A DNA stretch of 53,056 nt, taken from positions 1 to 53,056 of the forward strand of contig JAGYNZ010000019.1 in NCBI GenBank assembly GCA_018399745.1, given 5' to 3'. This stretch comes from Deltaproteobacteria bacterium (lineage in GTDB: Bacteria > Desulfobacterota > Dissulfuribacteria > Dissulfuribacterales > UBA3076). Below, in pieces: positions 29,095-49,271 of the stretch. Within the stretch, counting starts at the first letter, position 1, and every line of letters starts with the position of its first letter. Under the pieces are notes generated by a model, which saw nothing but the letters and a program-made list of their open reading frames with translations, did not search any database and was not told the origin of the DNA. Both the position numbers and the translations under genes were made by a program.

Positions 29095-29625
29095 GACATA
29101 CATAAAAAAGGCCTTCTCAATAGAAGGCCTTTTTTATTTTGGTATTTAAACGCAAGATAATCGTAAGATCACATAAACGCCATTTAAGATTGACAACCCA
29201 TATCATTAAGGTCCATAATAAAAAGTAGAGATTAAAGATCAAGATTAATGAATTCGTAGGGCCTGTACGAGTCGGTGCAGAGTAATATTGGCAGTTGCCG
29301 TTTCAGCCCGGATCACAAAAAGCGATTTCCTGATGCGTCAGGCAAAGTCCAGGCAACCAAGTTGGTTGGTACGTCAACCTGTTAAGGTCAGCCGATCATT
29401 CGGACCGGATCGTGGTCCATTAAAAATAATATACAAAAAGGATTGTATGAAGATATGGGAGGGAAACAGTTTACATCATCCGTCTTTTAAAATATGATTA
29501 AGTTGTTTTCGTCGTATCCGGAGTGGAAATTCTAAATTCTGATTATATAAATTGAGCTGCATGCCTGGTAATACTGAAGGGCAATGAATTGTATTATTAA
29601 AACCAGAGAACGGGAGGAGAGCAAG
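29095..29625. other. Intergenic region
   Basis: About 530 bp, opening with a perfect terminator at 29104-29136. The rest shows small inverted repeats (for example GGTC...GACC near 29390-29413) that hint at leader-RNA structure, but I cannot match it to a known riboswitch. No gene is supported. AACGGGAGGAG at 29610-29620 is the ribosome-binding site of the next gene. Confidence 0.4.
29104..29136 (+). terminator. Intrinsic terminator after PEP-CTERM-like gene
   Basis: AAAAAAGGCCTTCT and AGAAGGCCTTTTTT form a perfect stem around CAAT, with U- and A-tracts on both sides. It could terminate transcription in both directions. Confidence 0.93.
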
Positions 29626-30453
29626 ATGAAGAAAATTTTCGGCTTAGGAGTGGCGCTGGCGCTTTTAATGGGCAGTATAGCCTCGGTTGCGGCATGGGAG
29701 TTTGTTAGTGCTCCAGGGGCATATACCATGCTCCAGCAGTCTGACACCTACCTGCTGGATGTGAGGACGCCTTACGAATGGTATTGGGCAGGTCACCCTG
29801 GAGATGATGGAACCAGCGGGGCATTTTTAGAGGGAAAGGTCATTAATATCCCCTTTTGGTTGTGGGATTATGATCCGGCGACCAGCCAGTATACGTGGAT
29901 TCAGCGACCCTACATATTTTTTGTCGAGGAGGTGGTAAGACAGTTTGATGTTAATGATACCCTCATTATCATGTGCAAGACCGATGGACGGGGTGGTTAT
30001 GCCGCAGATGCATTAGAGGACCCGCTTCCTATATTTGAACGCCTGGAAGAGCTGGGCTTCTATAATCTTTACAATTTAGGTGGAGGATTTCTCAGCCCTG
30101 GTAAAGTACACGACGGTGTAACCTACATTGGATGGGTAGACTCAGGGCTGCCTTATAACACCAATCTTGATGGAATATGGGAAGAAACCCAGGGTCTGGT
30201 AAAGGCCGATATATTTTTCGACTGGCTTGAGTTTGCATATATAGATGTGCTTAATCCATGCCCCCTGCCAATTCAAACAGGTTCGGAAACCCAGGAAATT
30301 GCCGGGATTTTTTACCGGTATTATAGCAGTACAGGCATCTATGTCGCAGTGGTTGAAGATGACTTTTATGTTTATGATGAGTCGGGTGGATTACAGAATG
30401 CGGGCACAGTAGACGACTGGGCGAATGTGCTGTGGACACAGTTCAGCAACTAA
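29626..30453 (+). CDS. Exported rhodanese-like protein
   Basis: About 275 residues from the ATG at 29626, which is preceded by GGGAGGAG. An N-terminal signal peptide (GVALALLMGSIASVAA) is followed by a rhodanese domain: TYLLDVRTPYEWYWAGHPGD, KVINIPFWLWD, then the active-site loop LIIMCKTDGRGGYAADAL with Cys117 and a concluding YNLYNLGGGF strand. The C-terminal ~80 residues form an extra domain I do not recognise (QEIAGIFYRYYSSTGIYVAVVEDDFYVYDESGG). It should transfer or bind sulfane sulfur in the periplasm. A terminator follows at 30493. Confidence 0.85.
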   Translation: MKKIFGLGVALALLMGSIASVAAWEFVSAPGAYTMLQQSDTYLLDVRTPYEWYWAGHPGDDGTSGAFLEGKVINIPFWLWDYDPATSQYTWIQRPYIFFVEEVVRQFDVNDTLIIMCKTDGRGGYAADALEDPLPIFERLEELGFYNLYNLGGGFLSPGKVHDGVTYIGWVDSGLPYNTNLDGIWEETQGLVKADIFFDWLEFAYIDVLNPCPLPIQTGSETQEIAGIFYRYYSSTGIYVAVVEDDFYVYDESGGLQNAGTVDDWANVLWTQFSN

Positions 30454-30492: not shown

Positions 30493-30521
30493 GGCAGGGT
30501 CATTATGTCCCTGCCTTTTTT
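30493..30521 (+). terminator. Intrinsic terminator after exported rhodanese
   Basis: GGCAGGG (30493-30499) pairs with CCCTGCC (30509-30515) around a 9-nt loop and is followed by TTTTTT. Confidence 0.92.
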
Positions 30522-30524
30522 ATG

Positions 30525-30649
30525 GGCAGCAACTGTTTGTTGGATTGGACCTGGTTCTGAGATATTGAGTGATTTTATTAGAATTCAGGTGGTTTGTCAG
30601 GACATTTTTTCCGCCGCCTGAGGATGAGCCGCAATGTGACCACATCGGC
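30525..30649 (+). repeat. 125-bp direct repeat, copy 1
   Basis: From GGCAGCAACTGTTTGTTGGA to the ACATCGGC end, this segment matches 38390-38514 over 125 bp without gaps, with about 11 substitutions (about 91% identity by hand count). Both copies have the same orientation. It begins right after the terminator of the exported rhodanese gene and ends where a broken flavodoxin-like gene begins. It carries no obvious gene and could be the end of a former mobile element or a recombination scar. Confidence 0.88.
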
Positions 30650-30725
30650 AACGAAAATACTTGCAGCTTTATTTTCAGTATTATTGATTTATAGGCTTTT
30701 GGGTATTTCTATTTTATCTTCGATA

Positions 30726-31138
30726 TCGAAAACTGCTTTCCGATCTGAGTCGCTTTGGATGGGAATCCTGGAGAAAAATGGGGTTTCAGTGGATGTGATC
30801 AGGGCGGTGGACCACCAGATAGCTCCAGGGGTCTATCCGGATATGACCGAGCATGGCGTGGAAAGGGACGTTTGGACTGAGATATATAAGAAGGTCCTTG
30901 CCTCCGATATCCTTGTCAATGGATAGGGGAGGTAGATCCGGGTCTCTCCTGTCTCGACCCCGGTTCCGGCGGTCCGGAGAACGATTTCACAAACCGCAAC
31001 CAACCTTTATGACCTGGAACCTTCTTCATATGGCAAGAATGCTCAAGAACATGGGTGGAATACCCGCTCACGGCAACCAGCGTTCACTTTGGGAAAGCGG
31101 TTGCAGATTCGACCAGCCCAACCCTGAGTACCGCTGAG
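30726..31138 (+). pseudogene. Broken flavodoxin-like NADPH-dependent FMN reductase
   Basis: Two pieces of one gene in different frames. The first piece (30726-30926) reads LWMGILEKNGVSVDVIRAVDHQIAPGVYPDM...WTEIYKKVLASDILVNG, typical of the N-terminal half of flavodoxin-fold FMN reductases. The second (about 31005-31138), shifted by one frame, reads NLLHMARMLKNMGGIPAHGNQRSLWESGCRFDQPNPEYR, the conserved C-terminal end of the same family. The middle, including the second part of the flavin site, is mostly missing or scrambled, so the gene has lost sequence as well as frame. It sits between the 125-bp repeat and eanB. Confidence 0.8.
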
Positions 31139-31161
31139 TTAAGGGAAACAGAGGAATTTTC

Positions 31162-32451
31162 ATGTCAGACAGAATAAAGACTATCAATACACAGGAGCTG
31201 TTTGAACTGCTCGGCCGACCGGATACGGTACTGGTCGATGCAAGGAGGCCGGATGCCTACAATGGGTGGAGGCTGAAAGCTGAGAAGAGAGGCGGCCACG
31301 TCAGCGGGGCCAGGAACCTCTGGGCGGGCTGGACCGGCGCGGAATACTGGAAGGACATCCTTGCAGGAAAGGAAATTGACAGAAAAAGCCGGATCGTCAT
31401 CTACGGCTACGATGATGAGGAAGCCCAAGGTGTTGCGGAAGCTTTGATCGAAGAGGGCTACGATGATATCCTGATCTACGAAGGCTTTCTGAAGGAGTGG
31501 TCGGCAAACCCTGGACTGCCCATGGAACACCTTCCCAGGTTCCGGCACCTTGTACACCCGGAGTGGTTGAGCAAGTTGCTGAAGGGGGAGAGTCCGGAAG
31601 AACATGATGGAACCAGGTTCGTTGTATGTCATGCCCATTACAGAAATCCGGACGATTACGCCCTGGGGCACATTGAAAATGCCATTCCCCTGGATACCCT
31701 GGAACTGGAGGAGCGGCATCTATGGAACCGACGGACTCCGCAGGAACTGAGAAATTCCTTGGAAAAAAACGGCATAACTCATGATACCACAGTGATCACC
31801 TACGGCAGGTTTTCCGACCCGGACAAACGGGATCCGTTCCCTGGCAGCAACGCCGGGCAGATAGCTGCTATTCGGTGCGCCGTGATTATGATGTACGCCG
31901 GTGTCCGGGACGTGAGGGTCCTGAACGGAGGGCTCATGTCCTGGATAGCCAGCGGCTTCGATATATCAACTGATACGCTGACTCCCGAAAGGGTAAATGA
32001 TTTCGGGGCGGATATTCCCGGCCGTCCCGGTATAATGGTGGGTATTCCCGAGGCGAAGGAACTGCTTGCCTCCCGGGAAGGAGAACTGGTCAGCGTTCGA
32101 AGCTGGAAGGAATTCATAGGAGAGGTTAGCGGCTATAACTATATAGATGTGAAGGGACGAATACCCGGCGCCATCTTCGGTGACTGCGGAAGCGACGCCT
32201 ACCACATGGAAAATTTCCGGAACCCTGATCACACAACTCGGGAATACGGCGAGATAGAGCGGAACTGGATAAAATCAGGTATCACGAGGGACAAGCGGAT
32301 CGCGTTTTATTGCGGTACCGGCTGGAGGGCCAGTGAAGCGTTCCTGAACGCCTACCTTCTCGGATGGAATGATATTGCTGTATTTGACGGCGGATGGATG
32401 GAGTGGAGCAATGATCCCTCCAACCCCATCGAAGTCGGCATCCCGGAATAG
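31162..32451 (+). CDS. eanB: EanB-like multi-domain rhodanese (hercynine sulfurtransferase)
   Basis: 429 residues made of three rhodanese-fold repeats (~5-120, ~130-275, ~285-425). The first two lack the active Cys (IVIYGYDDEEAQ and VITYGRFSDP). The third has IAFYCGTGWRASE with Cys384. This architecture, with one active CGTGWR loop in the last domain, matches EanB of Chlorobium limicola, which places sulfur from polysulfide directly on hercynine to form ergothioneine without oxygen. The next gene, 12 bp on, encodes a histidine-betaine-forming methyltransferase, which fits the EanA/EanB pair. Preceded by AAACAGAGGA. The enzyme assignment is by motif and context, not by test. Confidence 0.82.
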   Translation: MSDRIKTINTQELFELLGRPDTVLVDARRPDAYNGWRLKAEKRGGHVSGARNLWAGWTGAEYWKDILAGKEIDRKSRIVIYGYDDEEAQGVAEALIEEGYDDILIYEGFLKEWSANPGLPMEHLPRFRHLVHPEWLSKLLKGESPEEHDGTRFVVCHAHYRNPDDYALGHIENAIPLDTLELEERHLWNRRTPQELRNSLEKNGITHDTTVITYGRFSDPDKRDPFPGSNAGQIAAIRCAVIMMYAGVRDVRVLNGGLMSWIASGFDISTDTLTPERVNDFGADIPGRPGIMVGIPEAKELLASREGELVSVRSWKEFIGEVSGYNYIDVKGRIPGAIFGDCGSDAYHMENFRNPDHTTREYGEIERNWIKSGITRDKRIAFYCGTGWRASEAFLNAYLLGWNDIAVFDGGWMEWSNDPSNPIEVGIPE

Positions 32452-32463
32452 CCGAGTAAGAAT

Positions 32464-33441
32464 ATGCTTTCGGACCGCATCAGGTTCACCACCTGCTACA
32501 GGGCCCTCTCAGGGGAGGATGTCAGAGCTGAGATACTGGACGGCCTGCTGAGACCTCCCAGATCGATACCGTCAAAGTACTTCTACGACGGGGCGGGTTC
32601 ACGACTCTTCGAGAAGATCACCACGCTCACTGAATACTATCTCACCAGCACGGAAAAAGCTATAATGCAGGATGTTTTCCCGTCCATAGCGGAAGATATC
32701 GGTAGTATCGACATCATCGAACTCGGCAGCGGGGACTGCTCAAAGATTACTATCCTTCTGGATTGCATACCGAATGACCTGATGGCCGGAATACGTTACA
32801 TACCTGTAGATATCAGCAGATCAGCCGTCATGAAATCCTCGACAACCCTTCTGGAACGCTACCCGGATCTTCAGATCCATGGTTTGATAGCTGATTTCCA
32901 GAATGACATTCAGTCAATACCTGATGGAGCAGGAAGAATTGTCTGCTTCTTCGGAAGCACTATAGGCAACTTGGAAAGAAATGAAGCGAAACGGTTTATG
33001 AACCGTATTAAAAGCATAATGATGCCCGGTGACCGCCTGCTTCTCGGACTTGACATGGTCAAGAATACTCAGGTTCTCGAGCGGGCCTACAATGATGACA
33101 GCGGTCACACCGCTGAATTCAACCGCAACATACTGAAAGTAGTCAACAGATTACTCAGAAGCGATTTTGAGCCATCCCGTTTTGACCATTCGGCTTACTT
33201 CAATTCAGAAGAGAACAGGATAGAGATGCACCTTGTGGCGTCGGAGAATACCACTGTAAACAGTCCCTTCATATCAGAACCGCTCATACTTGAAAAGGGG
33301 GAATCGATACGCACCGAGAACTCATACAAGTATACGATGGACGATATAGCTGCGTTATCATCGATCAGCGGTCTTCAGATCAGTAATGTTTTCGCTGATG
33401 AGAGGGAATGGTTCTCACTGGTGGAGTTCTCCGCCGAATAG
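32464..33441 (+). CDS. eanA: EanA-like L-histidine N-alpha-methyltransferase
   Basis: A 325-aa SAM-dependent methyltransferase of the EgtD type. It begins with the typical RPPRSIPSKYFYDGAGSRLFEKITTLTEYYLTSTEKAI segment and then shows the SAM-binding IIELGSGDCSKITILLD, CFFGSTIGNLERNEAKRFM, LLLGLDMVKN, NRIEMHLVASE and a C-terminal GESIRTENSYKYT loop that helps bind the histidine. It should trimethylate histidine to hercynine, the substrate of EanB. It lies 12 bp after eanB. The gene is intact although surrounded by broken genes. Ribosome-binding site weak, so translation may be coupled to eanB. Confidence 0.85.
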   Translation: MLSDRIRFTTCYRALSGEDVRAEILDGLLRPPRSIPSKYFYDGAGSRLFEKITTLTEYYLTSTEKAIMQDVFPSIAEDIGSIDIIELGSGDCSKITILLDCIPNDLMAGIRYIPVDISRSAVMKSSTTLLERYPDLQIHGLIADFQNDIQSIPDGAGRIVCFFGSTIGNLERNEAKRFMNRIKSIMMPGDRLLLGLDMVKNTQVLERAYNDDSGHTAEFNRNILKVVNRLLRSDFEPSRFDHSAYFNSEENRIEMHLVASENTTVNSPFISEPLILEKGESIRTENSYKYTMDDIAALSSISGLQISNVFADEREWFSLVEFSAE

Positions 33442-33640
33442 AGCCTTCTCCAGCTTGATATCACTTGAGACATATACACAGTATCTCAATGCTGGTGACA
33501 TCATCGCTTTTGAAATCGATAGCGAAATTAAGAGCAAAGAACTGTCGGGATTGACAGAACCTTCGGTTGTTAGGATGAAGCTATTTACCCTCGACAACAG
33601 GTTTATAATTAGAAAAATTGGTCATTTATCAAAGCGGACC
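33439..33640 (+). pseudogene. C-terminal fragment of PemK/MazF-like toxin
   Basis: Starting inside the eanA stop region, the frame reads ISLETYTQYLNAGDIIAFEIDSE then SGLTEPSVVRMKLFTLDNRFIIRKIGHLSK, a close match to the C-terminal half of PemK/MazF endoribonuclease toxins (LxxPSVVR...TLD...KIG.LS). The N-terminal half, with the catalytic Arg, and any start signal are missing, and the frame runs into unrelated residues after LSKRT. A remnant, with no antitoxin gene nearby. Confidence 0.7.
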
Positions 33641-33917
33641 GCCTGGACGTTCCCCTGCCGGGTTGCTGCCGGATTCTGGCTCATCAGCAGGAAGTCTGCG
33701 AACATCCTTCCTCGGCAAGCGCTTTGAACCCTTTGAAATCTCCCGGCACCACCCGCGAGCTTGCCTTGACCTCCACAGCGGTTTTTACACCAATGAGAAA
33801 ATCCACCTCGTGGCCGTGTGTCGATCGCCAGTATGTAAAAGGAGGCTTTATCCTGCTGTAGCTCAGGTACGCCCGGATCTCCATGCCGATGAACTGCTCA
33901 AAGCTCCTGCCGTACAA
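33615..33917 (-). pseudogene. C-terminal fragment of DUF4143-type AAA ATPase
   Basis: On the minus strand, 33917-33684 reads YGRSFEQFIGMEIRAYLSYSRIKPPFTYWRSTHGHEVDFLIGVKTAVEVKASSRVVPGDFKGFKALAEEG, the C-terminal DUF4143 nuclease-like domain of the common AAA+DUF4143 proteins (EVDFLIG, AVEVKAS). After AEEG the frame is lost. A shifted frame continues LLMSQNPAATRQGNVQAV, which would be the expected final strands. The ATPase half is absent. A decayed remnant, ending close to the PemK fragment in a convergent arrangement. Confidence 0.75.
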
Positions 33918-33974
33918 AAAAAAGCGGCAAAGCGATTTTCTCTATTGCCGCCTGTAACGATAATGAAGTGAAAA

Positions 33975-34439
33975 ATAAACGGTTCCCTGCTATCAGGAGC
34001 TAAGGGACGCATCGGCCCTGCTTGGTCTGTTGAAAGCCACGGTATAACACCCGGGCATGGGCGTTGATCTTATGGGGTAAAAGTCCCCTGTATGTGAACC
34101 CCGCTCCGTCATTTCATGATGGTAGCTAAAGCACTGGCTGAAGGCAGGGGCGATTTCGCGAGATGGCACAGGATCAAAAAGTGGATACCAGCAAAGGCCG
34201 TTTTGCTGGGGTTTCGCTTGGCCGGGGATTTGTGCTGGAAAAATTCATCCTCGATTATTCTTTATCTTCTTTTGGAGAAGTCGGGACACTCAATCGACTC
34301 ACGCTTAGCGGTATGTTTTAAAAGAAGGGCTGACTTTCGAACTTCAAAATCAACACAAACGTGTTTTTTGCTTATAACAACTGAAAGTTTTATGATATTT
34401 TATTCATTGGTTTAAAGTGAGAATATTGAGGGAGAAGAT
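33975..34439. other. Non-coding segment rich in hairpins
   Basis: About 465 bp without a convincing gene (a frame at 34116-34415 has no protein-like features). It contains several short stable hairpins: GGGG-TAAAAGT-CCCC at about 34075-34089, and CCAGCAAA-(6 nt)-TTTGCTGG at 34188-34209. The mix of stems and tetraloop-like linkers resembles part of a structured RNA such as a group II intron domain, but no intron-encoded protein or domain V was recognised. The strand is unknown. AGGGAGAAG before 34440 serves cutA. Confidence 0.35.
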
Positions 34440-34763
34440 ATGCCAGAAGAAATCATCATTTTTATAACCGCCGGGAATAAGACCGAAGCCAACCAAATTG
34501 CCAAAGTTCTCATTCAGGAAAAACTGGCTGCGTGTGTTAATATGATTGATCAGGTGGAGTCAGTTTTTAAATGGCAAAATCAGGTATCGCAGGAAAAAGA
34601 AATTTTGATGATAGTCAAAAGCATCAGCCGCAATATGGACAAGATAATTACCACGGTTAAGCAAAACCACAGTTACGACGTGCCCGAAATTATTGCGATG
34701 CCGATTATTTCCGGGTCAAAGGAGTATCTGTCGTGGCTGCGCGAAGAATCGTCCGGCAGGTGA
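34440..34763 (+). CDS. cutA: Divalent-cation tolerance protein CutA1
   Basis: A 107-aa trimeric alpha/beta protein. Signatures are IIFITAGNKTEANQIAKVLIQEKLAACVNMI, VESVFKWQNQVSQEKEILMIVKS and the C-terminal VPEIIAMPIISGSKEYLSWLRE. CutA1 is linked to copper and other divalent cation tolerance, though its exact action remains unclear. Length is normal and the frame is intact. GAGGGAGAAG lies just before the ATG. It stands alone among broken genes. Confidence 0.93.
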   Translation: MPEEIIIFITAGNKTEANQIAKVLIQEKLAACVNMIDQVESVFKWQNQVSQEKEILMIVKSISRNMDKIITTVKQNHSYDVPEIIAMPIISGSKEYLSWLREESSGR

Positions 34764-34874
34764 CGGAATATCAAATAAAATAATCTGTATAAAACAAAAA
34801 TCTTAGTTTTTTGAAATATTTCCCATTTTACACTGGTCTATCTATATAAATCGAAAAATGAACGAGCTGAGCGC

Positions 34875-35307
34875 ATGGAGTTAACTATTATTGGAAGCGG
34901 AACTGCCTCACTGCAAGCAAATCGAGGACCTGCCGGGTATGTGCTGAGCATTGGCGACACCCTTTGTATTCTGGATAGTGGTACCGGAACATTCTTAAAA
35001 TGTCTGCAGGCGGGATTCAGTTATCGTGATGTCAATAAATTGTTCTACACACATCTGCACCCGGACCACACCATCGGATCTCGTTCCTTTTCTGTTTGCA
35101 ATAAAATACACGCCCGGCTTTGGCAGAAAAAAGGACCTGGAAATTTATGGTCCGCCAGGGTTTAAAGATTTCTTTCGTAAGCTAACTACGTTGTTTGGTT
35201 CCGGTATGACAGAGGTCGGCTACGAGATTAATTTAGCAGAATTGCATGAAACGAAGTTTGACCCTGGTCAGTTTAAAGGGACAACTAAAAAATGTACGAG
35301 AGACTGA
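34875..35307 (+). pseudogene. Frameshifted, truncated metallo-beta-lactamase-fold hydrolase
   Basis: The first part (from the ATG at 34875) reads MELTIIGSGTASLQANRGPAGYVL...LDSGTGTFLKCLQ...LFYTHLHPDHTI, the start of an RNase Z-like MBL protein with the metal motif THLHPDH. Around 35070-35080 the frame shifts by one, and the protein continues as SDLVPFLFAIKYTPGF...LEIYGPPGFKDFFRKLTTLFG before ending at 35307. The remaining metal ligands of the C-terminal half are missing, and the tail runs into the antisense lpxR-like gene, so this is a dead fragment. Confidence 0.85.
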
Positions 35308-36304
35308 TCGAACCGAAAATTTGGGCCTCGTCCTGGTCGTCGAACTCTTTTGTGCAATAGACATGGGTATAGGTGAGTCTGAAATTTTTTATGTTAAGGC
35401 TTGCTCCGGCCATAATGTCAGCGACGAACGGTTTTTTGTCCACCTCGTGGCTGTCAGTGAAGGTATTGCCGTCAAGGAAAATGTTCTGAAGGACCGCTCG
35501 GCCATCGACGCCAACGAAAACGTGGAAACCGAACGGCGGGCTTTTGGCGTCCGCCGCCGCCAAGCTGGAGTCTCCCGCGGGTCGGAAAAGGCCGGTTCCG
35601 AAATCGAGTGGCAGATTATAACCCCATCGGATCTCCGCTCCGGCGTTCGCATAGGTGTAAACGTTGCCCAAAGCGGCTCCTATATGGGGTATGACATCGA
35701 ATTCCGCCCAGTCGCCGGAGTCCGTTTCCCAAAGCCGATATTTGATTTCATAAGCGACAACCAGAGCGGGTTCGTTTTTCAACTGGTTGTTCCATCCTTT
35801 GGGTTCGTCGGTATTGATCCATTCGTGTACCGTCTCCTGAATGTCTCTCGCGTAGGATTCTGGGCCTACAATTCCGATGTCGAGTTCGAGGGAATCCAGT
35901 CTTTTGCGGGTTTTACTGTGAAAACCGATTCCAAAGTAGGTATAACCGGCGTAGGGACGGTCGTCCTCGATCAACTCTTCTTTCTCTATATCTTTGGGGG
36001 TGAATATTTTTTGCCCCAAGGACAAAGCGATGTTCTTGACCGCCTTTTTCGGTAACGGCACCGACTCGATCGCTCCCGCGCTCCAAGCAGGCAATCTTTT
36101 GTCCTCGATAAATTCGCCCAGGTCTCCGGATATCCAAATCAGTTTCGCCCCGTTGGTGTAATAACGGTCCGTATTGGCGAAAATATCGTTTTCCCAATAA
36201 ATGATGAATGTCTGTTCGTCGTCCAAATCCGGTTTTTCCTCCGAATAAACCGACGGAATTGCGGCAAACAGGAAAATCACAAGGTATATTAACAATTTTA
36301 ACAT
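35285..36304 (-). CDS. LpxR-like outer-membrane lipid A deacylase (DUF2219)
   Basis: A 339-aa protein with a signal peptide (YLVIFLFAAIPSVYS) and a DUF2219 beta-barrel. Features are FIIYWENDIFANTDRYYTNGAKLIWI (conserved Asn/Asp motif), DDRPYAGYTYFGIGF, HEWINTDEPKGWNNQL and a barrel ending FGSISLSYIF with a terminal aromatic. LpxR removes the 3'-acyloxyacyl group of lipid A in a Ca2+-dependent manner. Length fits the family (~320). Its 3' end overlaps the dead MBL fragment by 23 bp. Base composition looks richer in G+C than nearby DNA, hinting at transfer. Confidence 0.85.
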   Translation of the reverse strand: MLKLLIYLVIFLFAAIPSVYSEEKPDLDDEQTFIIYWENDIFANTDRYYTNGAKLIWISGDLGEFIEDKRLPAWSAGAIESVPLPKKAVKNIALSLGQKIFTPKDIEKEELIEDDRPYAGYTYFGIGFHSKTRKRLDSLELDIGIVGPESYARDIQETVHEWINTDEPKGWNNQLKNEPALVVAYEIKYRLWETDSGDWAEFDVIPHIGAALGNVYTYANAGAEIRWGYNLPLDFGTGLFRPAGDSSLAAADAKSPPFGFHVFVGVDGRAVLQNIFLDGNTFTDSHEVDKKPFVADIMAGASLNIKNFRLTYTHVYCTKEFDDQDEAQIFGSISLSYIF

Positions 36305-36459
36305 TATTTTTTCCCGCCGGCATGTAGTTTGATTTTTTCGAAAAAGCCGAACGAGTTTCCGGGTTCATCAAAACGGCACTTCAATCGAAATTTTTTTCAT
36401 TGGCCTGTCTACCAAGCATGCAATTTTAAAATTTCGCCTCTTTCCCCCCTAATTCCTTT

Positions 36460-36959
36460 CCATTTTTCCCTTTCGACGCGCTCGAATGGTTGGCCGCCAT
36501 GTGTTCTCATGTGCCGAATAAGGATGAACAGATGGTTCGTTACTACGGCTACTATATTAATGTCAGCCGTGGAAAAAGAAAGATGCAAGACAAGAATGAC
36601 GCCATCACCTCCGTTTTGGAACCTCAAGGTTCATCAAAGGAATTCCGTAAGAACTCGGCTCACCTTATTCAAAAGATATATGAGATCGATCCGCTCACAT
36701 GCCCTAAATGTTCAGGGGATATGAAGATCATAAGTGTTATGGAAAATGAAAATGTCATAAAGAAGATCCTCAAACATCTCGGACTGTGGGACCTTAAATC
36801 AAGGCCGTCGCCAATGAAAGAAAAGACACCCGGGCTTGGGTTAACGAAACCACCATGGACTATTCACTATCCCAACTGCCACCATCGGACGATTATCTCT
36901 GTTTTGATATGGAATACCCTGTCGAAGATTCCGATCTTAGCGGGGAGGCCTCATTCTGA
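36460..36959 (+). pseudogene. Remnant of an IS91-family transposase
   Basis: Only the C-terminal ~165 residues remain. The frame reads FDALEWLAAMCSHVPNKDEQMVRYYGYYINVSRGKRK, then NSAHLIQKIYEIDPLTCPKCSGDMKIISVMENENVIKKILKHLGLW, matching the zinc-ribbon tail of IS91-type Y1 transposases. Near 36855 a frameshift occurs; the shifted frame reads MDYSLSQLPPSDDYLCFDMEYPVEDSD and stops at 36959, the normal family ending. The relaxase domain with catalytic Tyr is absent. It shows that a rolling-circle element once acted here. Confidence 0.88.
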
Positions 36960-37145
36960 GAATTTTAAAAACAAAAATGGCGGTTAACGGAGTAGTGCGC
37001 CAAAATTCAAAGGCTTTTCAATCTATTATCCAGTAGCATTTCAAATAAGTTTTGATGTTTCGCCTTTCTTTTTTTATTCTTGACACAAGGCTGATCTTCT
37101 GATAGCCCCCAGTCAGAAAAGCAAGTTCTTATCACACAAGCAGAA

Positions 37146-37667
37146 GGTGGGTGCGAATATTCTGTGGATTGATGCAGCGTTGCACACTGATCTGCCGCAG
37201 CTTGAGGCAAAAATCGATAGCTCCCTGGCCGAAGTGACCGGCACAACAACAGCCCGGTGCGTACTGTTTGGCAACGGCTGTCTGCCGGGGATAAGCGATA
37301 TTGTCCAACGTCAGGGGTGGACATTCTTCCCGCCGGTAACTGCATTGATGCATTGCCGGGGAGTGAAGAGAGGCTGAAATACGAGGCGGAGGGCTGTTTT
37401 CTTTTGACACCGGGATGGGTCAGGGCCTGGCCTTCTATTGTGGCCTCCATGGGGTGGGATGCAGTGGATGTTAGAATTAACCCGGGGCGGTACAAAAAGA
37501 TACTGGTTTTTGATTCGGGTATTCACCCTTTAACTGATGAAGAGGTGCTGGATTTTTTTGATCTCACCGAGTTCGTCGTTGAAATCTGCCCTCTTGATCC
37601 GGGTCATTTTTCGTCGCTTATTGAAACGTTTATTGCAAGATTACGCAGACTAGGTGAAATCGCCTGA
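37146..37667 (+). pseudogene. Frameshifted DUF1638-like gene
   Basis: Two frames of one protein. The first reads ILWIDAALHTDLPQLEAKIDSSLAEV...CVLFGNGCLPGISDIVQRQG. After a G-run at 37313-37318 (one extra base) the next frame continues VDILPAGNCIDALPGSEERLKYEAEGCFLLTPGWVRAWPSI and runs to 37667. The joined product resembles DUF1638 proteins, often found near corrinoid/methyltransferase genes. The usual N-terminal ~20 residues also seem missing. Deletion of one G would restore the reading frame, so a sequencing slip is possible. Confidence 0.7.
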
Positions 37668-37698
37668 TATATTCCAACAACCAATACAAGGAGCAGTC

Positions 37699-38043
37699 AT
37701 GAAGAAAAAAATGTTCGTTATCGCATCGGTATTTGTAATGGCAGGAACTTTGACCCTCGCTTATGCGGCAGACGTCGACAAGGGTAAGGCCCTATTTGCC
37801 AGCCCGACTCTCGGCGGCGGCACAACCGGCAAGAGCTGCATGACCTGCCACGATGGTGGTGACGGTTTGGGGGATGATCTGTTTGATCGGAAGAGCTATA
37901 CCATCATGGGTATGGAAAAAAACAGTGTCGAGGAGATTGTCAATGTCTGTATCGAAAAGCCACTGGGAGGAGTCGCCATTGACCCGGCGGGTGAAGAAAT
38001 GAGCGATCTTATTGCCTATATGAAAACCCTGGTCGCCAAGTAA
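37699..38043 (+). CDS. Exported monohaem cytochrome c
   Basis: A 114-aa class I-type cytochrome. A signal peptide (FVIASVFVMAGTLTLAYA) is followed by one haem motif, CMTCH, in the mature protein, and candidate axial Met residues lie in the MGMEKNSVEE region and in the C-terminal EEMSDLIAYMKTL helix that closes the fold. It would shuttle electrons in the periplasm. AAGGAG precedes the ATG. A stable hairpin follows at 38081. The gene is intact. Confidence 0.88.
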   Translation: MKKKMFVIASVFVMAGTLTLAYAADVDKGKALFASPTLGGGTTGKSCMTCHDGGDGLGDDLFDRKSYTIMGMEKNSVEEIVNVCIEKPLGGVAIDPAGEEMSDLIAYMKTLVAK

Positions 38044-38080
38044 AAGGTTGCCCGGCTCGAAAATGAGTCGGCGACGATTG

Positions 38081-38106
38081 CCCCCTTGCCGAGTGACCGG
38101 CAAGGG
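38081..38106 (+). terminator. Likely terminator after cytochrome c
   Basis: CCCCTTGCCG and CGGCAAGGGG pair perfectly around AGTGAC. Only TATTGT follows, so the U-tract is poor, but the stem is very stable. Confidence 0.7.
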
Positions 38107-38389
38107 GTATTGTCATACAACGATATTTACAGGACATTCCGCCCTAAAATTAATTTCCGCTATAAATAACACTATCAAATCTCGCTTAAACATGTTTAGG
38201 ACAACAGTCAAATAAGCTGTAAGGTTTTGTTCTTTGTCTCGACTCAATTTTATAAATACATCTTTTTAAACGCTGTGCCTGTTTGCCCCCAGACCTGCCA
38301 GCAGACTTTGGCCCTTACCCAACTCTGGCGGAGCAATTTTGACATATCTTTTTCGCTGGGGCATAATGACCAATTCTGCCGTTTTCATC

Positions 38390-38514
38390 GGCAGCAACTG
38401 TTTGTTGGATTGAACTTGGTGCCGAGATACTGAGTGGTTTTATTAGATTTCAGGTGCTTTGTCAGGACATTTTTCCCGCCGCCTGAGGATGGGCCGCAAT
38501 GTGACCGCATCGGC
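38390..38514 (+). repeat. 125-bp direct repeat, copy 2
   Basis: Second copy of the segment at 30525-30649, same orientation, about 91% identical over 125 bp. It lies 167 bp from the 3' end of tRNA-Arg. The two copies bracket the 7.7-kb patchwork of eanBA and broken genes. Confidence 0.88.
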
Positions 38515-38680
38515 CCTGCTCGGATTGAATTTCAAGCCGTACGAATCTTGCGGCATTTAATTACATCAATATCTGATAACCGCAGAGCATTGAGGCTAAA
38601 TCATGGGAACAAAACAGGAATAATCTTAACATTAAAACCAAAAGAACTTAACCCTGTATGATATAAGTCTCTGTTTTTAT

Positions 38681-38757
<77 letters not shown>

Positions 38758-38871
38758 TGAGGCGAAAAGTCTTCCAATAATAATATATTCAGCTTAATAA
38801 CAAAAAAATCCTTATCGAATCTCTGCTTCGAATTTTAACATAAAAAAACAAAGGTAAATATTATTAAAATG

Positions 38872-39785: not shown

Positions 39786-40937
39786 ATGAAACCTATACTG
39801 CGTCGCATTTTATTTGTACTTATTATTTTTGTTGTGGCGGCACTGATCCTTTTCTATGTAATGAGGGAAAAGCCGGTCTCAGCTGTCGTGCAGGTCGTGG
39901 ATAGCGGACGCGTCGAGGCGACCGTGTCCAATACGCGTTCCGGCACTGTCAAGGCCTGCAGGCGTGCCCGGCTTGCACCGGCCATTGGAGGCCAGATAGA
40001 TGAACTTTCAGTACGTGAGGGGAATCGCGTTGATGAGGGCCAGGTGTTGCTGGTGCTCTGGAATGAGGATCTGGAGGCCGAAGTGAAGCTGGCGGAGAGC
40101 GAAGGCGCAACAAGCCGGGCCAAAGCCGATGAGGCCTGTTTGTTGGCAGAGGAGGCCCAACGCGATGCCGACCGGCTCGTGGAACTCCGCAAACAGGACC
40201 TGGTCTCTGAGGCGGACTTTGACCAGGCCGTAACCAAAGCCAGTGCCCTGCGTGCGAACTGTGAAGCCGCCTGGGCAAGTGTCAGGATGAGCGCCGCACG
40301 TCTTCTATTCGCCCGCGCAAGGCTGGACCGGACTATCCTCAGGGCGCCGTTCGCAGGGACGGTCGCAGAGGTAAACGGCGAACTGGGTGAGTTTGTTACA
40401 CCCTCACCCACAGGTATAGCCACGTTGCCTGTTGTGGATCTCATTGATACGAGCTGCCTCTATGTCTCTGCCCCTATAGACGAGGTGGATGCCACGGCCA
40501 TCAGGACGGGAATGGAGGCGCGCATCACACTGGATGCATTTCCCAAAACGAATTTCAAGGGCGTGGTCAGGCGTATCGCACCTTATGTGCTGGAGCTGGA
40601 AAAGCAGGCCCGGACCGTTGAGGTAGAGACGGTCTTTGAAGACCTGCCCGGCAATAATGAACTGCTGTCCGGCTACAGCGCCGATGTGGAGATTATCCTT
40701 GATGTGCGGAATGATGTGCTTCGAATACCCACTGAGGCCGTTCTGGAGGGCGGCCGCGTACTTGTCTGCCGGGCTGACGGGCTGATAGAGGAACGCACGA
40801 TAGAAACGGGGCTTTCAAACTGGCAGTTAACCGAGGTGGTATCAGGTCTTGAATCCGGAGAGCTGGTCATAACGTCAGTAGACAGGGAAGGCATAAGGCC
40901 GGGTGCCCGTGCCAGGCCGGAATTCGTATCCAGGTAA
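39786..40937 (+). CDS. HlyD/RND-type periplasmic adaptor
   Basis: A 383-aa membrane-fusion protein. An N-terminal membrane anchor (LFVLIIFVVAALILFYVM) is followed by a lipoyl half (SGRVEATVSNTRSGTVKACRRARLAPAIGGQIDELSVREGNRVDEGQVLLVLWN), a long helical hairpin, the second lipoyl half (RTILRAPFAGTVAEVNGELGEFVTP) and a beta-barrel with DVRNDVLRIPTEAVLEGGRVLVC. Such adaptors bridge an inner-membrane pump (RND or MacB-like) and TolC. No pump gene follows. The TolC-like protein at 22679 could be a partner, but this is only a guess. G+C appears higher than in the next cluster. Confidence 0.9.
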   Translation: MKPILRRILFVLIIFVVAALILFYVMREKPVSAVVQVVDSGRVEATVSNTRSGTVKACRRARLAPAIGGQIDELSVREGNRVDEGQVLLVLWNEDLEAEVKLAESEGATSRAKADEACLLAEEAQRDADRLVELRKQDLVSEADFDQAVTKASALRANCEAAWASVRMSAARLLFARARLDRTILRAPFAGTVAEVNGELGEFVTPSPTGIATLPVVDLIDTSCLYVSAPIDEVDATAIRTGMEARITLDAFPKTNFKGVVRRIAPYVLELEKQARTVEVETVFEDLPGNNELLSGYSADVEIILDVRNDVLRIPTEAVLEGGRVLVCRADGLIEERTIETGLSNWQLTEVVSGLESGELVITSVDREGIRPGARARPEFVSR

Positions 40938-43626: not shown

Positions 43627-43669
43627 ACCATATATTGGAATTAGACTATAAAAACAAAAGAGGATAGTG

Positions 43670-44041
43670 ATGAGTCATTATGTGCATATCGTTCCGGGAC
43701 GTATGAGGGTGAAGATACCTCTTGTAAAAAGAAAAAGGGAATCGGCAGAGCATATTGAACAATTAGTTAGACAGTTTAGGGGTATAAAGTCTTGCTCTGT
43801 CAACGTCATCACGGGCAGCATTCTGATTTTGTACGATCCGGAGACAATAAATTCAGATGTGATTCTGGATCGCTTTGAAAACGAAGGATTCTTTGATAGA
43901 TCAAAGATGATATCGAGCGATGAACACATTGATGGAGCATTGACAAAAGTGGGAGAATTTCTGGGAAAAGTAATTTTCAGCGCATGTGTCGAAAAGGCCT
44001 TTCAAGGGAGTGTATTTTCCTATATCACGGCTCTTATTTAG
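43670..44041 (+). CDS. Small HMA-like domain protein (no CxxC)
   Basis: A 123-aa protein. Residues ~5-75 form a ferredoxin-like HMA fold: YVHIVPGRMRVKIPLVKRKRE, then FRGIKSCSVNVITGSILILYDP. The CxxC metal pair of true heavy-metal domains is absent; the loop has GRMRVK instead. The C-terminal ~40 residues are hydrophobic (GEFLGKVIFSACVEKAF) and may touch the membrane. I chose the ATG at 43670 because AGAGGA lies 5 bp before it. It is the first gene after the Pho-box-like promoter. It shares the VxGRxRxK and TGSxLxxY motifs with the protein at 44857 and with the pump N-terminus. Function unknown. Confidence 0.75.
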   Translation: MSHYVHIVPGRMRVKIPLVKRKRESAEHIEQLVRQFRGIKSCSVNVITGSILILYDPETINSDVILDRFENEGFFDRSKMISSDEHIDGALTKVGEFLGKVIFSACVEKAFQGSVFSYITALI

Positions 44042-44540
44042 ATATATTCTTTATATACTCACCTAATCAGGCCTGACAGGTAATCTGAAGCATATCTAAA
44101 AAATCCGATTCTGGATTAATAATCAATTTTTTTCTATTGTTTTTTTCAGAAAAAATAAATATAATATTGGTTGAGGAGATGTTTCTCTTCTCTTCTCTTC
44201 TCTTCTCTTTAGCAGGAAGTTGAAGCTTGTTTTAATCTTGAGCATGAGCAGGGTTAAAATTGAACAAAACCGAGCTATCAATAAATTGCTATTTAAAAAG
44301 ATTAATCTCTTATCTTGCATTATGCAAAAAATTTAATTGTGTGAATTTTGTGAAAGCTTGAACTTAAATTAGGTGTAACAACCTCATATTTTTTATAAGT
44401 ATCTGAATAAACATCAGTTAATGCGTTGAAGTAACCTATAATAAAAAAGTTTTTGATCTTTAAGCTCTAAGATATTTTTTATATTCATTTTGGCTTAATA
44501 GTCTTCGACTAATTATGATTTTAGGCAAAGGGGGCATGAA
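44042..44540. other. A+T-rich intergenic region with pentanucleotide repeat
   Basis: About 500 bp without a supported gene. It holds the (TTCTC)5 tract at 44183-44207. A separate promoter for the following genes is likely because of the distance. No Pho-box-like array is seen here. Confidence 0.45.
44183..44207 (+). repeat. (TTCTC)5 microsatellite
   Basis: Five perfect TTCTC units, followed by TTT. Such pentanucleotide tracts change length by slipped-strand mispairing and can vary promoter spacing or transcript structure. It lies between the first HMA-like gene and the DUF5132 gene, 334 bp before the latter. Confidence 0.95.
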
Positions 44541-44873
44541 ATGGCGCTGTTCGGTGATACGATAAAAGGGACGGTTTTTAGCGGTCTTGCCATAGGGATA
44601 GGCGCAGCTGTGATTGTGCCGGCAGTTCTTCCGGTTCTGGTTAGAGTGGGTAAGCCTCTGGCCAAGGCCGCCATGAAGAGCGGACTTATTCTGTACAACA
44701 CAGGCAGGGAAATGGCAAGCGAATTGGAAGAGATAGCGGGGGATCTTTGGGCAGAGGCTAAGGCAGAGGCCGAAGAAGAGATTGAATCTGAAGCGGAGTC
44801 CGAAGGAGAGGAAGAGGAAATGCTACCAAGCACGGCAGAACTTCAGGAAGAGACCGGTGTTAAAGCTACCTAA
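44541..44873 (+). CDS. DUF5132-like membrane protein with acidic tail
   Basis: A 110-aa protein. Residues ~10-35 form a glycine/alanine-rich membrane segment (VFSGLAIGIGAAVIVPAVLPVLVRV), followed by an amphipathic helix (GKPLAKAAMKSGLILYNTGREMASELEEIAGDLW) and a strongly Glu-rich tail (about 15 Glu in 30 residues). The acidic tail could bind cations such as Ca2+ or the Lys-rich tail of the protein at 45359. The last 17 bp overlap the next gene. DUF5132 genes commonly sit with HMA-like proteins and P-type ATPases. No activity is known. Confidence 0.75.
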   Translation: MALFGDTIKGTVFSGLAIGIGAAVIVPAVLPVLVRVGKPLAKAAMKSGLILYNTGREMASELEEIAGDLWAEAKAEAEEEIESEAESEGEEEEMLPSTAELQEETGVKAT

Positions 44874-45336
44874 AGCAATAATAACTCACACTGTAAACGG
44901 CAGGTTGAGAATCAAGGTACCTTTGGAAAAGGGTAATAACAGATATTTCCAGGCCTTGGAGCATAAATTATCCCGCTGTGACGGTGTACATAGTATAAAG
45001 ACGAATTCAATAACTGGAAGTGTGCTGCTCCTTTACGAGGCCGATAAAAAGGAAAATATCTTTAAATTTGCGGAGGAGAATAGACTATTTAAGTTACAGG
45101 GGCATGAGAGTGTGCGAATGTTGCTGATAGATAGGGTTAGGCACAGCTTTAAAGATCTAAACAGATATACAAAGAAATTAACAGGGGATGAGTTGGACAT
45201 AGCTAGTTTTACATTTCTTTCTTTACTTTTTTTAAGTATTTACAAGATAGTAAGAGGCAACTTTTTCGCTCCTGCCTGGTACACATCTCTCTGGTATGCA
45301 ATCAACACAATTATTAGGTCTTCGGATAATCGGTAA
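44857..45336 (+). CDS. HMA-like domain protein with C-terminal membrane helix
   Basis: About 159 aa from the GTG at 44857, which is preceded by CAGGAAGAG inside the DUF5132 gene; a TTG at 44782 is a worse start. The N-terminal HMA-like domain reads AIITHTVNGRLRIKVPLEKGNNRYF, then GVHSIKTNSITGSVLLLYE, again without CxxC. The C-terminal part has a membrane helix (ASFTFLSLLFLSIYKIV) and an aromatic-rich end. It is translationally coupled to the DUF5132 gene (17-bp overlap), which suggests the two proteins act together at a membrane. Confidence 0.75.
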   Translation: MLKLPKAIITHTVNGRLRIKVPLEKGNNRYFQALEHKLSRCDGVHSIKTNSITGSVLLLYEADKKENIFKFAEENRLFKLQGHESVRMLLIDRVRHSFKDLNRYTKKLTGDELDIASFTFLSLLFLSIYKIVRGNFFAPAWYTSLWYAINTIIRSSDNR

Positions 45337-45358
45337 CGTCGAAAAGGGGGCAAGCAAA

Positions 45359-46144
45359 ATGGTCGAAGAAAAAGAAAAAAGATCGGGCGAAGAAGGGTTA
45401 CATAGAGCTGGTTCAGCCGTAAAGGAGGGCATAGTTAGCAGTCTTAAAGGAGTGAATGAGATCGAGGCGGAAATTGTAAGTTTGGCCAGAAACGTCGTAT
45501 CCAACACCCTAAGTGCCTCGGGTAATGTGACTAAGGAGGGCATCGGTGTCATCACTGATGTTATGAAGGGTGCAATTCAAGGTACAGAAGAGATTGGCAC
45601 CGGAGTCATAATGGCCGTGAAGAGTGTATCCAAAGGCATCATTCTTGGCGTCAGCGACGTTGGAGGTGATGTTGTGACTGTTGCCGGGCAGACGACCAGA
45701 GTTGCTGTTAAAGAGGCCGCTAACGTAGGAGCGGATGTGGCTATGATTGGCAGGAGGACCGTTGATGGTGTGATAGAGGCCACTAAAGAAGTCGGGGGTA
45801 ACGTGGAAAAAGTCGCAATGAGTGCTGTCAAAGGGGCCATTGAAGCAGCAGCAAGTTTAGGAAAGGTTGCGACTACGGCGGTTACCGAATTACTTGTGGG
45901 CGCTGTAGGAGGTATCAAAGAAGTGCTAAACGCCATAGTTCCAAAGTCTTCAAGAAGAGAGATTGGCAAGCCTGTACAAAATAAGATATCGTCAAAAGCA
46001 AGTAAAAAAGTAACGCCCAAGCCCGTTAGTAAGAAATCAACAGAAGAAGAGACAAAAGCAAATAAAAAAGTAACTCCCAAGACCGAAAATAAGAAATCAA
46101 CAGAAGAAGAGACAAAAGCAAAGTCTGCTAAGCCTTCTGTCTAA
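45359..46144 (+). CDS. Amphipathic phasin/apolipoprotein-like protein, Lys-rich tail
   Basis: About 261 aa from the ATG at 45359; AAAAGGGGG precedes it. Residues ~15-195 are an uninterrupted series of Gly/Ala/Val-rich amphipathic segments of 11-22 residues (GIGVITDVMKGAIQGTEEIGTGVIMAVKSVSKGIILGVSDVGGDVV...), a pattern seen in phasins, LEA proteins and apolipoproteins that coat lipid or polymer surfaces. The last ~60 residues are Lys/Thr/Glu-rich and contain a 20-aa tandem repeat. There is no signal peptide. It may coat a granule or membrane inside the cell. This is inference from composition. Confidence 0.65.
   Translation: MVEEKEKRSGEEGLHRAGSAVKEGIVSSLKGVNEIEAEIVSLARNVVSNTLSASGNVTKEGIGVITDVMKGAIQGTEEIGTGVIMAVKSVSKGIILGVSDVGGDVVTVAGQTTRVAVKEAANVGADVAMIGRRTVDGVIEATKEVGGNVEKVAMSAVKGAIEAAASLGKVATTAVTELLVGAVGGIKEVLNAIVPKSSRREIGKPVQNKISSKASKKVTPKPVSKKSTEEETKANKKVTPKTENKKSTEEETKAKSAKPSV
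46001..46120 (+). repeat. 60-bp tandem repeat inside the amphipathic-protein gene
   Basis: Two head-to-tail 60-bp units (46001-46060 and 46061-46120) differ at 6 positions. They encode two 20-residue units of the type SKKVTPKPVSKKSTEEETKA. The last 30 bp of each unit are identical. Confidence 0.95.
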
Positions 46145-46220
46145 GAGAGGGAATTAGCTAAAGCAAAGTGTCAAAATGTAAATATAAAGATACGGGATGG
46201 AGAGAGATTAAGGGGCCTTA

Positions 46221-49200
46221 GTGGTGATTGACCCGATTCATTTATCGGTAAGGGGCAGGGTCAGATACAAGGTAAACGGTCTTTACCGCTCTAAACTTTT
46301 AAAAGCACATCTTGAGTCTCAACTCATTCAAGAGGAAGATATAACGAGAGTTAGTGCCAGTACACTAACAGGAAATCTTCTTGTCAATTATAACTCCCGC
46401 CGATTCACATCTGATATCGCCAAGCTGATTCAGAGGGTAGTCTCAGATTACAAAGTAAAGGCTTTAAACTCCCCAAAACATATAGCAAAAAAGCAAGACG
46501 ATATCTTGCCAAGAATTAAAAGTAAAGAAAAACGACCGTTTGTGAGCAAAAGGAAGCTCAGGCGTCTTGTGGCTCGTTCGCAGAAACAGGTGGGGAGTGA
46601 ATCCTGGCACTTGAGGGAAGTGGTCGATACGATAATGGCTCTTGACACTTCAATAACTTTTGGGCTTTCAGGTTTTGAGGCCAAACGGCGTTTTAAAAAG
46701 TATGGTCCAAATGTCCTTCCAGAAGCTTTATCACGATCAGGTTTTAAAATTTTTTTGGATCAGTTCAGGTCGTTTCCAGTCGGTATGCTTGCGGTAGCTG
46801 CTGGCATCTCGTTGCTTACCGGAGGTATCTTGGATGCCGCTGCGATAATGGGGGTTGTGGGCATAAATACAATTATAGGCTATGTAACCGAAAGCAGGTC
46901 TGACAAGATAATACATTCTTTAAAAAGCCTGGTTCGTCCAAGGACTTTGGTAAGACGAGACGAGAAGGTAAAGGATATCGGCGCAGAGGACGTTGTCCCT
47001 GGAGATGTGCTGGTTCTGAGGCCCGGACAATATGTAGCTGCTGATTCAAGACTCATAGAGACAGAGCGTTTAACTATCGATGAATCCTCTCTGACTGGCG
47101 AAAGCGTTCCAGTATCGAAGATGACCAATGTCCTTTATAAAAAAAATATTCCATTAAGTGACAGGTCTAACATGTGCTATATGGGCACGCTTGTAACCGG
47201 TGGTCAAGGGCTGGCTGTGGTAGTTGCTACCGGAAGATTTACAGAGATGGGAAGAATACAGGCAATGTTGACTGAGGCCGAAATTACACAAACTCCAATG
47301 GAGAAGCAGCTTGATCAGATAGGGACTAGGTTGGTGTTTGTATCAGGACTATTATGTGGCATTGTATTTGTAATTGGTATTTTGCGTGGCTATGGATTTC
47401 TGTTGATGTTTAAGACAGCTATTTCGTTGGCGGTAGCAGCTATTCCGGAAGGGCTTCCTGCAGTAGCTACAACTACGCTCGCTTTGGGTATTAGGGAGAT
47501 GCATCGACATAATGTTCTTGTAAGACATCTGAGTGCGGTAGAGACTCTTGGCTCTGTTCAGATCATCTGCCTTGACAAGACCGGCACTATTACTTTCAAC
47601 AGAATGTCAGTAGTGGAGATTTTTGTTGGGACCTGGCTAATCAATGTCTCGAAAAATAGGTTTGAAATTTTCCATGAGTCAATTCTTCCAATCTTTAGAG
47701 AGGAGTTAGCAGGCCTTGTCGTTTGCTCAACGCTATGTAATGAGAGCGAGTTGATACAGGTACACGGAGGTTATCTTGTAAAAGGATCTCCTACAGAGAA
47801 TGCCTTTATATATATGGCACAGTACTTTGGCCTCGATGTTCCGAATCTCAGAGCGAACTTTTATCTGATAAAGACAATATATCGTTCTGAAAGAAGCAAC
47901 ATAATGATCACTTTTCACAAAACCATCAATGGAAAGATTCTTGTTGCAGTTAAAGGCAGTCCTATGGAAGTCCTGTCTCTTTGCACCTTCAAGATGAGGC
48001 GGGGCAAGACTACTTTACTTGAAGATGCAGACTATAATTTATTTCAAACAGAGAATGAGCGCATGGCTGGCAAGGGCTTAAGAGTAATTGCGGTGGCATA
48101 TAGATTAATGGAATATGATGAGAATACTTATAGCGATGAGGAATTGATGCCCTGCAACCTGGTGTGGCTGGGGCTTTTAGGTATAGCAGATCCCGTAAGG
48201 AAGGGGGCCAAAAAACTTATAGCCCGCTTTCATAGAGCCGGCATAAGAACAGTTATGATAACTGGAGATCAAGGACCCACAGCCTATGCCATAGCAAAAG
48301 ATTTGAACTTGAGCGGGGAAGAACCACTAAGGATTCTCGATTCCACCAGCCTCGTCGATATAGACTCCCAAGCTCTGCAGGCTTTATGCCAGCAATCTCA
48401 AGTATTTGCCAGAGTGAGTCCTTCGCATAAGCTTCAGATTGTACAGAATTTGCAGAAAGCAGGCAAAGTTGTAGCTATGACCGGTGATGGAATAAACGAT
48501 AGTCCGGCACTAAAGGCTGCAGATATCGGCATAGCCATGGGGCAAACAGGGACCGATGTCGCCAGAGAGGTTGCGAGCGTGGTCCTCGAAGATGACAACA
48601 TTGAGACTATGATCATTGCCGTAGGCCAGGGAAGGACCATATATAACAATGTCCGTAAATCACTCCATTTTTTGCTTGCAACAAATTTTAGTGAAATAAT
48701 GGTCACTTTTGCCGCAACGATGGTCGGCTTAGGGCAGCCTTTGAGCAGTATGCAGTTGCTCTGGATCAACCTTATAACAGATATTTTTCCGGGACTTGCT
48801 CTTTCAATGGAGGCGCCTGAAAAGGATATATTAAATCGCCCTCCAAGGGATCCTGATAATCCTATGATTAATTCTTCCGATTTCAAGAAGATAACTCGTG
48901 AAGCCGGAATTATTAGTCTGGGAGCTATCAGCTCATATGTTTATGGAGTACTCAGATATGGAAAGGGTCTGAGAGCGAGCAGCATAGCTTTCCAGACCCT
49001 TACGTTAAGCCAGCTCCTCCATGCCATAACTTGTCGTTCCGAACAGCATAGTATATTTGATTTGGAGTCTCGATCTGCAAACAAATATTTGAATGTAGCT
49101 CTGGGAGGATCATTTATTCTTCAGGCGATGTCACCTGTTGTTCCTGGATTGAGATCGCTTCTTGGTTTAAGCACAATTGGAATGACTGATTTGCTGATAA

Positions 49201-49271
49201 TAGGAATTAATGCCCCGTTGCCCTTTTTGTTAAATGAGATAGCAAAAAAGGTACAGAATGGAAATGTATGA
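46221..49271 (+). CDS. P-type ATPase (Ca2+-ATPase-like) with N-terminal HMA-like domain
   Basis: 1016 aa. Residues ~1-90 are a third HMA-like module without CxxC (LSVRGRVRYKV, STLTGNLLVNYN). The rest is a complete P-type pump: N-terminal cation-ATPase region, actuator LTGES (292-295), PEGLP in M4 (409 on), phosphorylation motif DKTGT (Asp452), GDGINDSPAL hinge (755 on), and M5-M10 with LWINLITDIFPGLALSMEAPE. PEGLP rather than CPC points to the P2 (Ca2+/Na+/K+) group, not heavy-metal pumps. The start is one of two adjacent GTG codons after AAGGGG. Its last 4 bp overlap the MetK-like gene (ATGA). It exports a cation or loads it into a compartment; the ion is unknown. Confidence 0.9.
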   Translation: MVIDPIHLSVRGRVRYKVNGLYRSKLLKAHLESQLIQEEDITRVSASTLTGNLLVNYNSRRFTSDIAKLIQRVVSDYKVKALNSPKHIAKKQDDILPRIKSKEKRPFVSKRKLRRLVARSQKQVGSESWHLREVVDTIMALDTSITFGLSGFEAKRRFKKYGPNVLPEALSRSGFKIFLDQFRSFPVGMLAVAAGISLLTGGILDAAAIMGVVGINTIIGYVTESRSDKIIHSLKSLVRPRTLVRRDEKVKDIGAEDVVPGDVLVLRPGQYVAADSRLIETERLTIDESSLTGESVPVSKMTNVLYKKNIPLSDRSNMCYMGTLVTGGQGLAVVVATGRFTEMGRIQAMLTEAEITQTPMEKQLDQIGTRLVFVSGLLCGIVFVIGILRGYGFLLMFKTAISLAVAAIPEGLPAVATTTLALGIREMHRHNVLVRHLSAVETLGSVQIICLDKTGTITFNRMSVVEIFVGTWLINVSKNRFEIFHESILPIFREELAGLVVCSTLCNESELIQVHGGYLVKGSPTENAFIYMAQYFGLDVPNLRANFYLIKTIYRSERSNIMITFHKTINGKILVAVKGSPMEVLSLCTFKMRRGKTTLLEDADYNLFQTENERMAGKGLRVIAVAYRLMEYDENTYSDEELMPCNLVWLGLLGIADPVRKGAKKLIARFHRAGIRTVMITGDQGPTAYAIAKDLNLSGEEPLRILDSTSLVDIDSQALQALCQQSQVFARVSPSHKLQIVQNLQKAGKVVAMTGDGINDSPALKAADIGIAMGQTGTDVAREVASVVLEDDNIETMIIAVGQGRTIYNNVRKSLHFLLATNFSEIMVTFAATMVGLGQPLSSMQLLWINLITDIFPGLALSMEAPEKDILNRPPRDPDNPMINSSDFKKITREAGIISLGAISSYVYGVLRYGKGLRASSIAFQTLTLSQLLHAITCRSEQHSIFDLESRSANKYLNVALGGSFILQAMSPVVPGLRSLLGLSTIGMTDLLIIGINAPLPFLLNEIAKKVQNGNV

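Follow-up and report, generated by a model that had tools for sequence, protein, structure and literature searches.

The window analysed here, a stretch of 53,056 nt, carries two adjacent genes on the + strand, eanB and eanA, which encode proteins of 429 and 325 amino acid residues. The preliminary description had placed a three-rhodanese protein here, followed 12 bp later by an EgtD-type methyltransferase. Both ORFs were found to be intact, and Pfam concurred, with three rhodanese stretches in EanB and Methyltransf_33 in EanA. The features of the pair are as follows.

31149–31161, + strand: candidate ribosome-binding site of eanB, GAGGAA closely 5' of the ATG (direct reading of the sequence)
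31162–32451, + strand: eanB, predicted EanB-type ergothioneine synthase with three rhodanese domains and catalytic Cys384 in CGTGWR (phmmer, residues, tree)
32464–33441, + strand: eanA, predicted histidine N-alpha-methyltransferase of the EgtD type (TIGR03438, Pfam Methyltransf_33, substrate-site residues)

A 12-nt gap separates eanB, the first gene, from eanA. No candidate promoter of eanBA scored above shuffle expectation.

When EanB was compared with solved structures by phmmer, the best matches were Chlorobium limicola EanB, PDB 6ktv (E = 6e-159) and 6h98 (E = 4e-158), and the next was YnjE (E = 7e-83). EanB of the window is 55% identical to the C. limicola enzyme and shares its three-rhodanese architecture and its catalytic Cys/Tyr/Thr/Arg set. 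C384, Y325, T386 and R389 correspond to C. limicola Cys412, Tyr353, Thr414 and Arg417, with the register fixed by Tyr and Thr variants at aligned positions within the solved structure set, so that all four equivalents were kept in the catalytic-site check that had been proposed. Tyr353, Cys412 and Arg417 are the key EanB residues according to a review (PMC10903977). The Cys loop (CGTGWR, with Cys384) was confined to the third rhodanese domain, in agreement with the single active loop described earlier.

The CGTGWR loop was discarded as an EanB diagnostic, as the thiosulfate sulfurtransferase YnjE of E. coli carries the same loop. YnjE also has three rhodanese domains and the equivalents of Glu345, Tyr353 and Arg417; because it keeps all four catalytic residues too, neither they nor the loop discriminate EanB, and the residues common to both proteins are not enough to specify the substrate. 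In contrast, YnjE is 39% identical to EanB of the window and lacks the 19 EanB-specific positions (e.g. HxHYRN at 157–162, Tyr347 and Asn351), all of which the window protein matches (19/19, HxHYRN included). These positions were defined as invariant in nine reference EanB-clade proteins, among which C. limicola EanB is the sole biochemically characterised one, and absent from three YnjE-like outgroups. In the tree, EanB of the window clustered with C. limicola EanB and was separated from the YnjE-like proteins with a support of 100/100. Its nearest row was from Fermentibacteria (91/89), and the other branchings within the clade were mostly weakly supported. This overall placement, in the C. 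limicola clade and with all of the specific positions, is the discriminating evidence for the predicted EanB identity. We know of no EgtD partner for YnjE.

EanA scored 355.6 bits with TIGR03438, the NCBI equivalog for EgtD (cut-off 290.9), and the genome has no other EgtD. All ten of the positions Tyr39, Phe47, Tyr56, Gly161, Asn166, Tyr206, Thr213, Met252, Glu282 and Ser284 (Mycobacterium smegmatis EgtD numbering), which we take from EgtD structures to be the histidine/TMH-site residues, were identical in EanA. EanA joined the EgtDs of three other adjacent eanB–eanA pairs with a tree support of 98/98. Within the family it is thus placed with the EgtDs, having passed the cut-off and kept the histidine site, as the earlier assignment to the EgtD-type histidine methyltransferases had claimed. 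That assignment had been made dependent on the family side of EanA and on the substrate-site residues, and on both the predicted EanB–EanA identity of the pair held up. M. smegmatis EgtD belongs to the same family and has the same histidine-binding residues, whereas its partner is EgtB, an O2-dependent sulfoxide synthase, and the partner in the window is a rhodanese protein.

Based on these residues and placements, we infer the following activities. EanA would use three SAM to trimethylate histidine at its alpha-amino group, yielding hercynine (trimethylhistidine). EanB would carry sulfane sulfur as a persulfide on Cys384 and pass it to the imidazole ring, assisted by Tyr325 and Arg389, a scheme modelled on the proposal for the C. 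limicola enzyme (PMC10903977). Together, they should form hercynine from histidine and then, with polysulfide, ergothioneine from hercynine, all without O2. This pathway has been described before, and C. limicola likewise pairs EanB with an EgtD-type methyltransferase (our sequence comparison covers EanB); what would be new is its occurrence in this host lineage, by transfer, rather than a new kind of system. Another O2-independent route, with an EgtD-type methyltransferase and the metallopterin-dependent ergothioneine synthase MES, occurs in Caldithrix abyssi (PMC9516567); MES, the sulfur-inserting enzyme there, is unrelated to EanB.

EgtD was present in 8/9 other genomes reached through close EanB relatives (above cut-off in 6), and above cut-off in 0/14 control genomes. 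Given that the genomes of L005 and L010 are near-identical at the ean locus, independent co-occurrence of EanB and EgtD comes to about 7/8. Adjacent eanB–eanA genes were found in Fermentibacteria, Aegiribacteria and Syntrophomonadaceae MAGs (L002, L005 and L006). The two genes are therefore adjacent, on the same strand and co-occurring across genomes, as in an anaerobic ergothioneine (ean) operon. EanB loci without an adjoining EgtD were also observed (L003, L004, L007 and L008), and in the L003 genome (Melioribacteraceae), which has a clear EanB homologue, no EgtD was detected genome-wide, possibly owing to a different acceptor or to an incomplete genome. Such loci, together with the suggestion of Beliaeva and Seebeck that sulfurisation by some EanB-like enzymes may target other heterocycles (PMC9516567), would be compatible with an EanB-like sulfurtransferase that uses another acceptor, the pair then making a different sulfurised heterocycle or a methylated amine. 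For the window this is very unlikely, as its EanB matches every EanB-specific column, the EgtD next to it has a complete histidine site, and EgtD accompanies EanB in nearly all of the genomes examined.

At L005, eanB and eanA are followed by a long ORF that, judged by its sequence, appears to encode a cysteine desulfurase, then by sufE, an aminotransferase-like gene and a flavodoxin gene. A sufE or sufE-like gene adjoins or lies near eanB at L005, L007 and L008 (the L008 gene was judged by sequence only), which suggests a cysteine desulfurase/SufE route as the source of sulfur for EanB. Unlike at L005 and L007, no sufE or other sulfur-supply gene was found near eanBA in the window. A native gene for a secreted rhodanese-domain protein (29584–30453; 83% protein identity to a congener) lies directly left of the segment described below, and a role for it in sulfur supply would be speculation.

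The pair lies in a segment that is not native to the genus, whose features are as follows.

30522–38800: insert with eanBA, about 8.3 kb, without counterpart in seven congeners except for a tRNA gene and the group II intron fragment (genus DNA search, synteny BLAST)
30511–30649, + strand: direct repeat, left copy, 139 nt, at the left insert edge; 90% identical to 38376–38514
30651–31137, + strand: FMN-reductase/flavodoxin-family remnant, broken, directly 5' of eanB (two reading frames; a 54-residue stretch 67% identical to the L005 gene)
33684–33917, − strand: DUF4143 ATPase gene, C-terminal fragment (positions 106–160 of 160 of PF13635 only)
34051–34166: group II intron fragment, many copies in the genus (77–89% identical to congener copies)
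34440–34763, + strand: cutA, intact, inside the insert (PF03091)
34875–35307, + strand: RNase Z-like metallo-hydrolase gene, frameshifted (N-terminal TIGR02651 match to the first ORF of 96 residues, interrupted)
35285–36304, − strand: LpxR-family outer membrane protein gene, intact, inside the insert (PF09982, full length)
36490–36987, + strand: IS91-family transposase gene, C-terminal fragment (NF033538 positions 287–354 of 356)
37147–37667, + strand: DUF1638 gene, frameshifted (successive parts of PF07796 matched in two overlapping frames)
37654–38043: gene for a small cytochrome-like protein, intact
38376–38514, + strand: direct repeat, right copy, 139 nt, near the right insert edge; 90% identical to 30511–30649

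The genes on either side of the pair had been described as fragments, which was correct for the direct neighbours and slightly too strong for the stretch as a whole, where cutA, the lpxR homologue and the gene for the small cytochrome-like protein are intact. In the 139-nt repeats every frame was broken, no family match was obtained, and the genus search gave no further copy; within the insert, 18 nt at a third site (34008–34025) match the end of the right copy. The FMN-reductase remnant had no DNA match in the congeners. At L005 its counterpart is intact, encodes a protein that matches Pfam FMN_red and lies 3' of eanA, and the remnant may be a leftover of the donor neighbourhood. The group II intron family has copies on many contigs across the genus (L035, L036, L037, L043, L046 and L047), with a degraded piece in the window, and the gathering score of Rfam RF02001 was passed beside an intron copy in two retrieved loci. 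Matches to the Rfam family Plastid-ycf2 were rejected as tRNA look-alikes below gathering. A linkage of eanB to RNase Z-like genes, which lie 5' of eanB at L003 and, as the broken copy, after eanA in the window, was also rejected, as 36% identity over 70 residues is too low.

Both flanks of the insert are native. On the left, aroC has 86–92% protein identity to six congeners, and on the right the membrane-fusion gene has 91% to congener G040; the left-hand homology to the congeners ends at 30521 (G041), and homology restarts to the right of the insert at 38801 (G040). EanB was found in 1/46 genomes of the order, 0/7 congeners and 1/395 genomes of the phylum, a sample that spans 246 genera and includes 328 genomes that are at least 90% complete with low contamination. 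EgtD above cut-off was found in 1/46 genomes of the order, and the seven congeners had neither EanB nor EgtD. The closest relatives of the pair, in the same gene order, were found in a Ca. Fermentibacteria MAG (Bin_206, L002), with 67–69% identity for EanB and 58% for EanA. That locus also shares the strand arrangement and the dinucleotide signature: the distance of eanBA to it was only 0.046, compared with 0.120 to the window backbone, for which the mean is 0.057 and the maximum 0.109. It differs in its GC3 (0.74 versus 0.63 for eanB and 0.57 for eanA) and in that no adjacent flavodoxin gene was detected there. The pair had been described as richer in G+C than its flanks, and this was supported (eanB 54% and eanA 48%; native genes on the left side 46–51%, with GC3 of about 0.46–0.51), although G+C is high (57%) in the native membrane-fusion gene at 39786 as well.

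The phyletic distribution, the empty congeners, the composition and the Fermentibacteria-like donor strongly support horizontal gain of eanBA, in line with the gain suggested in the preliminary description. The donor was probably a Fermentibacteria-like microbe; as EanB identity is only 67–69% and the tree is small, it is indicated at the lineage level, the actual donor being unsampled. If the pair were instead ancestral in the phylum and lost from all sampled relatives, its copies might sit in unsampled genomes or be hidden by the incompleteness of MAGs, but its absence from all 394 other phylum genomes, most of them >90% complete, a foreign composition matching the Fermentibacteria locus, and nearest sequences that belong to other phyla bring vertical inheritance close to refuted. 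No EanB was found on viral contigs, and the plasmid records held only YnjE-like or other rhodaneses with at most 41% identity to EanB. A 16S gene was not found in the assembly. In the dN/dS comparison with the Fermentibacteria copies, synonymous sites were saturated.

A false join of foreign DNA into the contig was considered as well, and the genome is a draft of 88 contigs with repeats near both edges of the insert. With both flanks native, however, two independent false joins would be required; moreover, a degraded copy of the genus-wide group II intron lies inside the insert, and the estimated contamination is 0.83%. A chimeric assembly is accordingly very unlikely.

The chance of both genes staying stop-free is about 0.02 at about 5% change per copy, a value that assumes, as an unproven dating, that the 90%-identical repeats date from the insertion. 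Because the dating is assumed, selection for retention of eanBA is plausible but not shown; the retention by selection that had been proposed stands to this extent and is conditional on the repeat dating. The pair could also be a recent arrival that is intact for lack of time and unused by the host, which concerns host use and is compatible with the enzyme assignment. No strong promoter was found, the neighbours in the insert have decayed and the base composition has barely adapted, all as expected for passengers; set against the stop-free probability, which counts only under the repeat dating, unused passenger genes are unlikely. We consider the chances about even that a compact eanB–eanA cassette moves between phyla and that selection maintains it in an anaerobe as the genes transferred with it decay, in which case ergothioneine would have a real benefit without oxygen.

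At a probability of about 0.86, our reading is that eanBA is an operon of two genes for making ergothioneine without oxygen, gained horizontally from a Fermentibacterota-like donor and intact while several neighbours decayed. The pair would have arrived in the 8-kb non-native insert and stayed intact, and several genes that arrived with it, or came by other insertions, would have decayed. Its position in a foreign insert and in another lineage sets it apart from the C. limicola pair. The predicted pathway, well supported by sequence, was unexpected in this host lineage and represents a clean case of transfer, and it would add one more case for the spread of the anaerobic ergothioneine route by horizontal transfer. 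With the seven empty congeners as natural controls, the lineage-specific gain allows a species that has the pathway to be compared with species that lack it, and bears on the role of ergothioneine in organisms that perhaps never encounter oxygen.

Elsewhere in the window, a cluster of genes for HMA_2 and DUF5132 proteins (43667–49271), with a P-type ATPase bearing an HMA_2-like N-terminus, adjoins metK.
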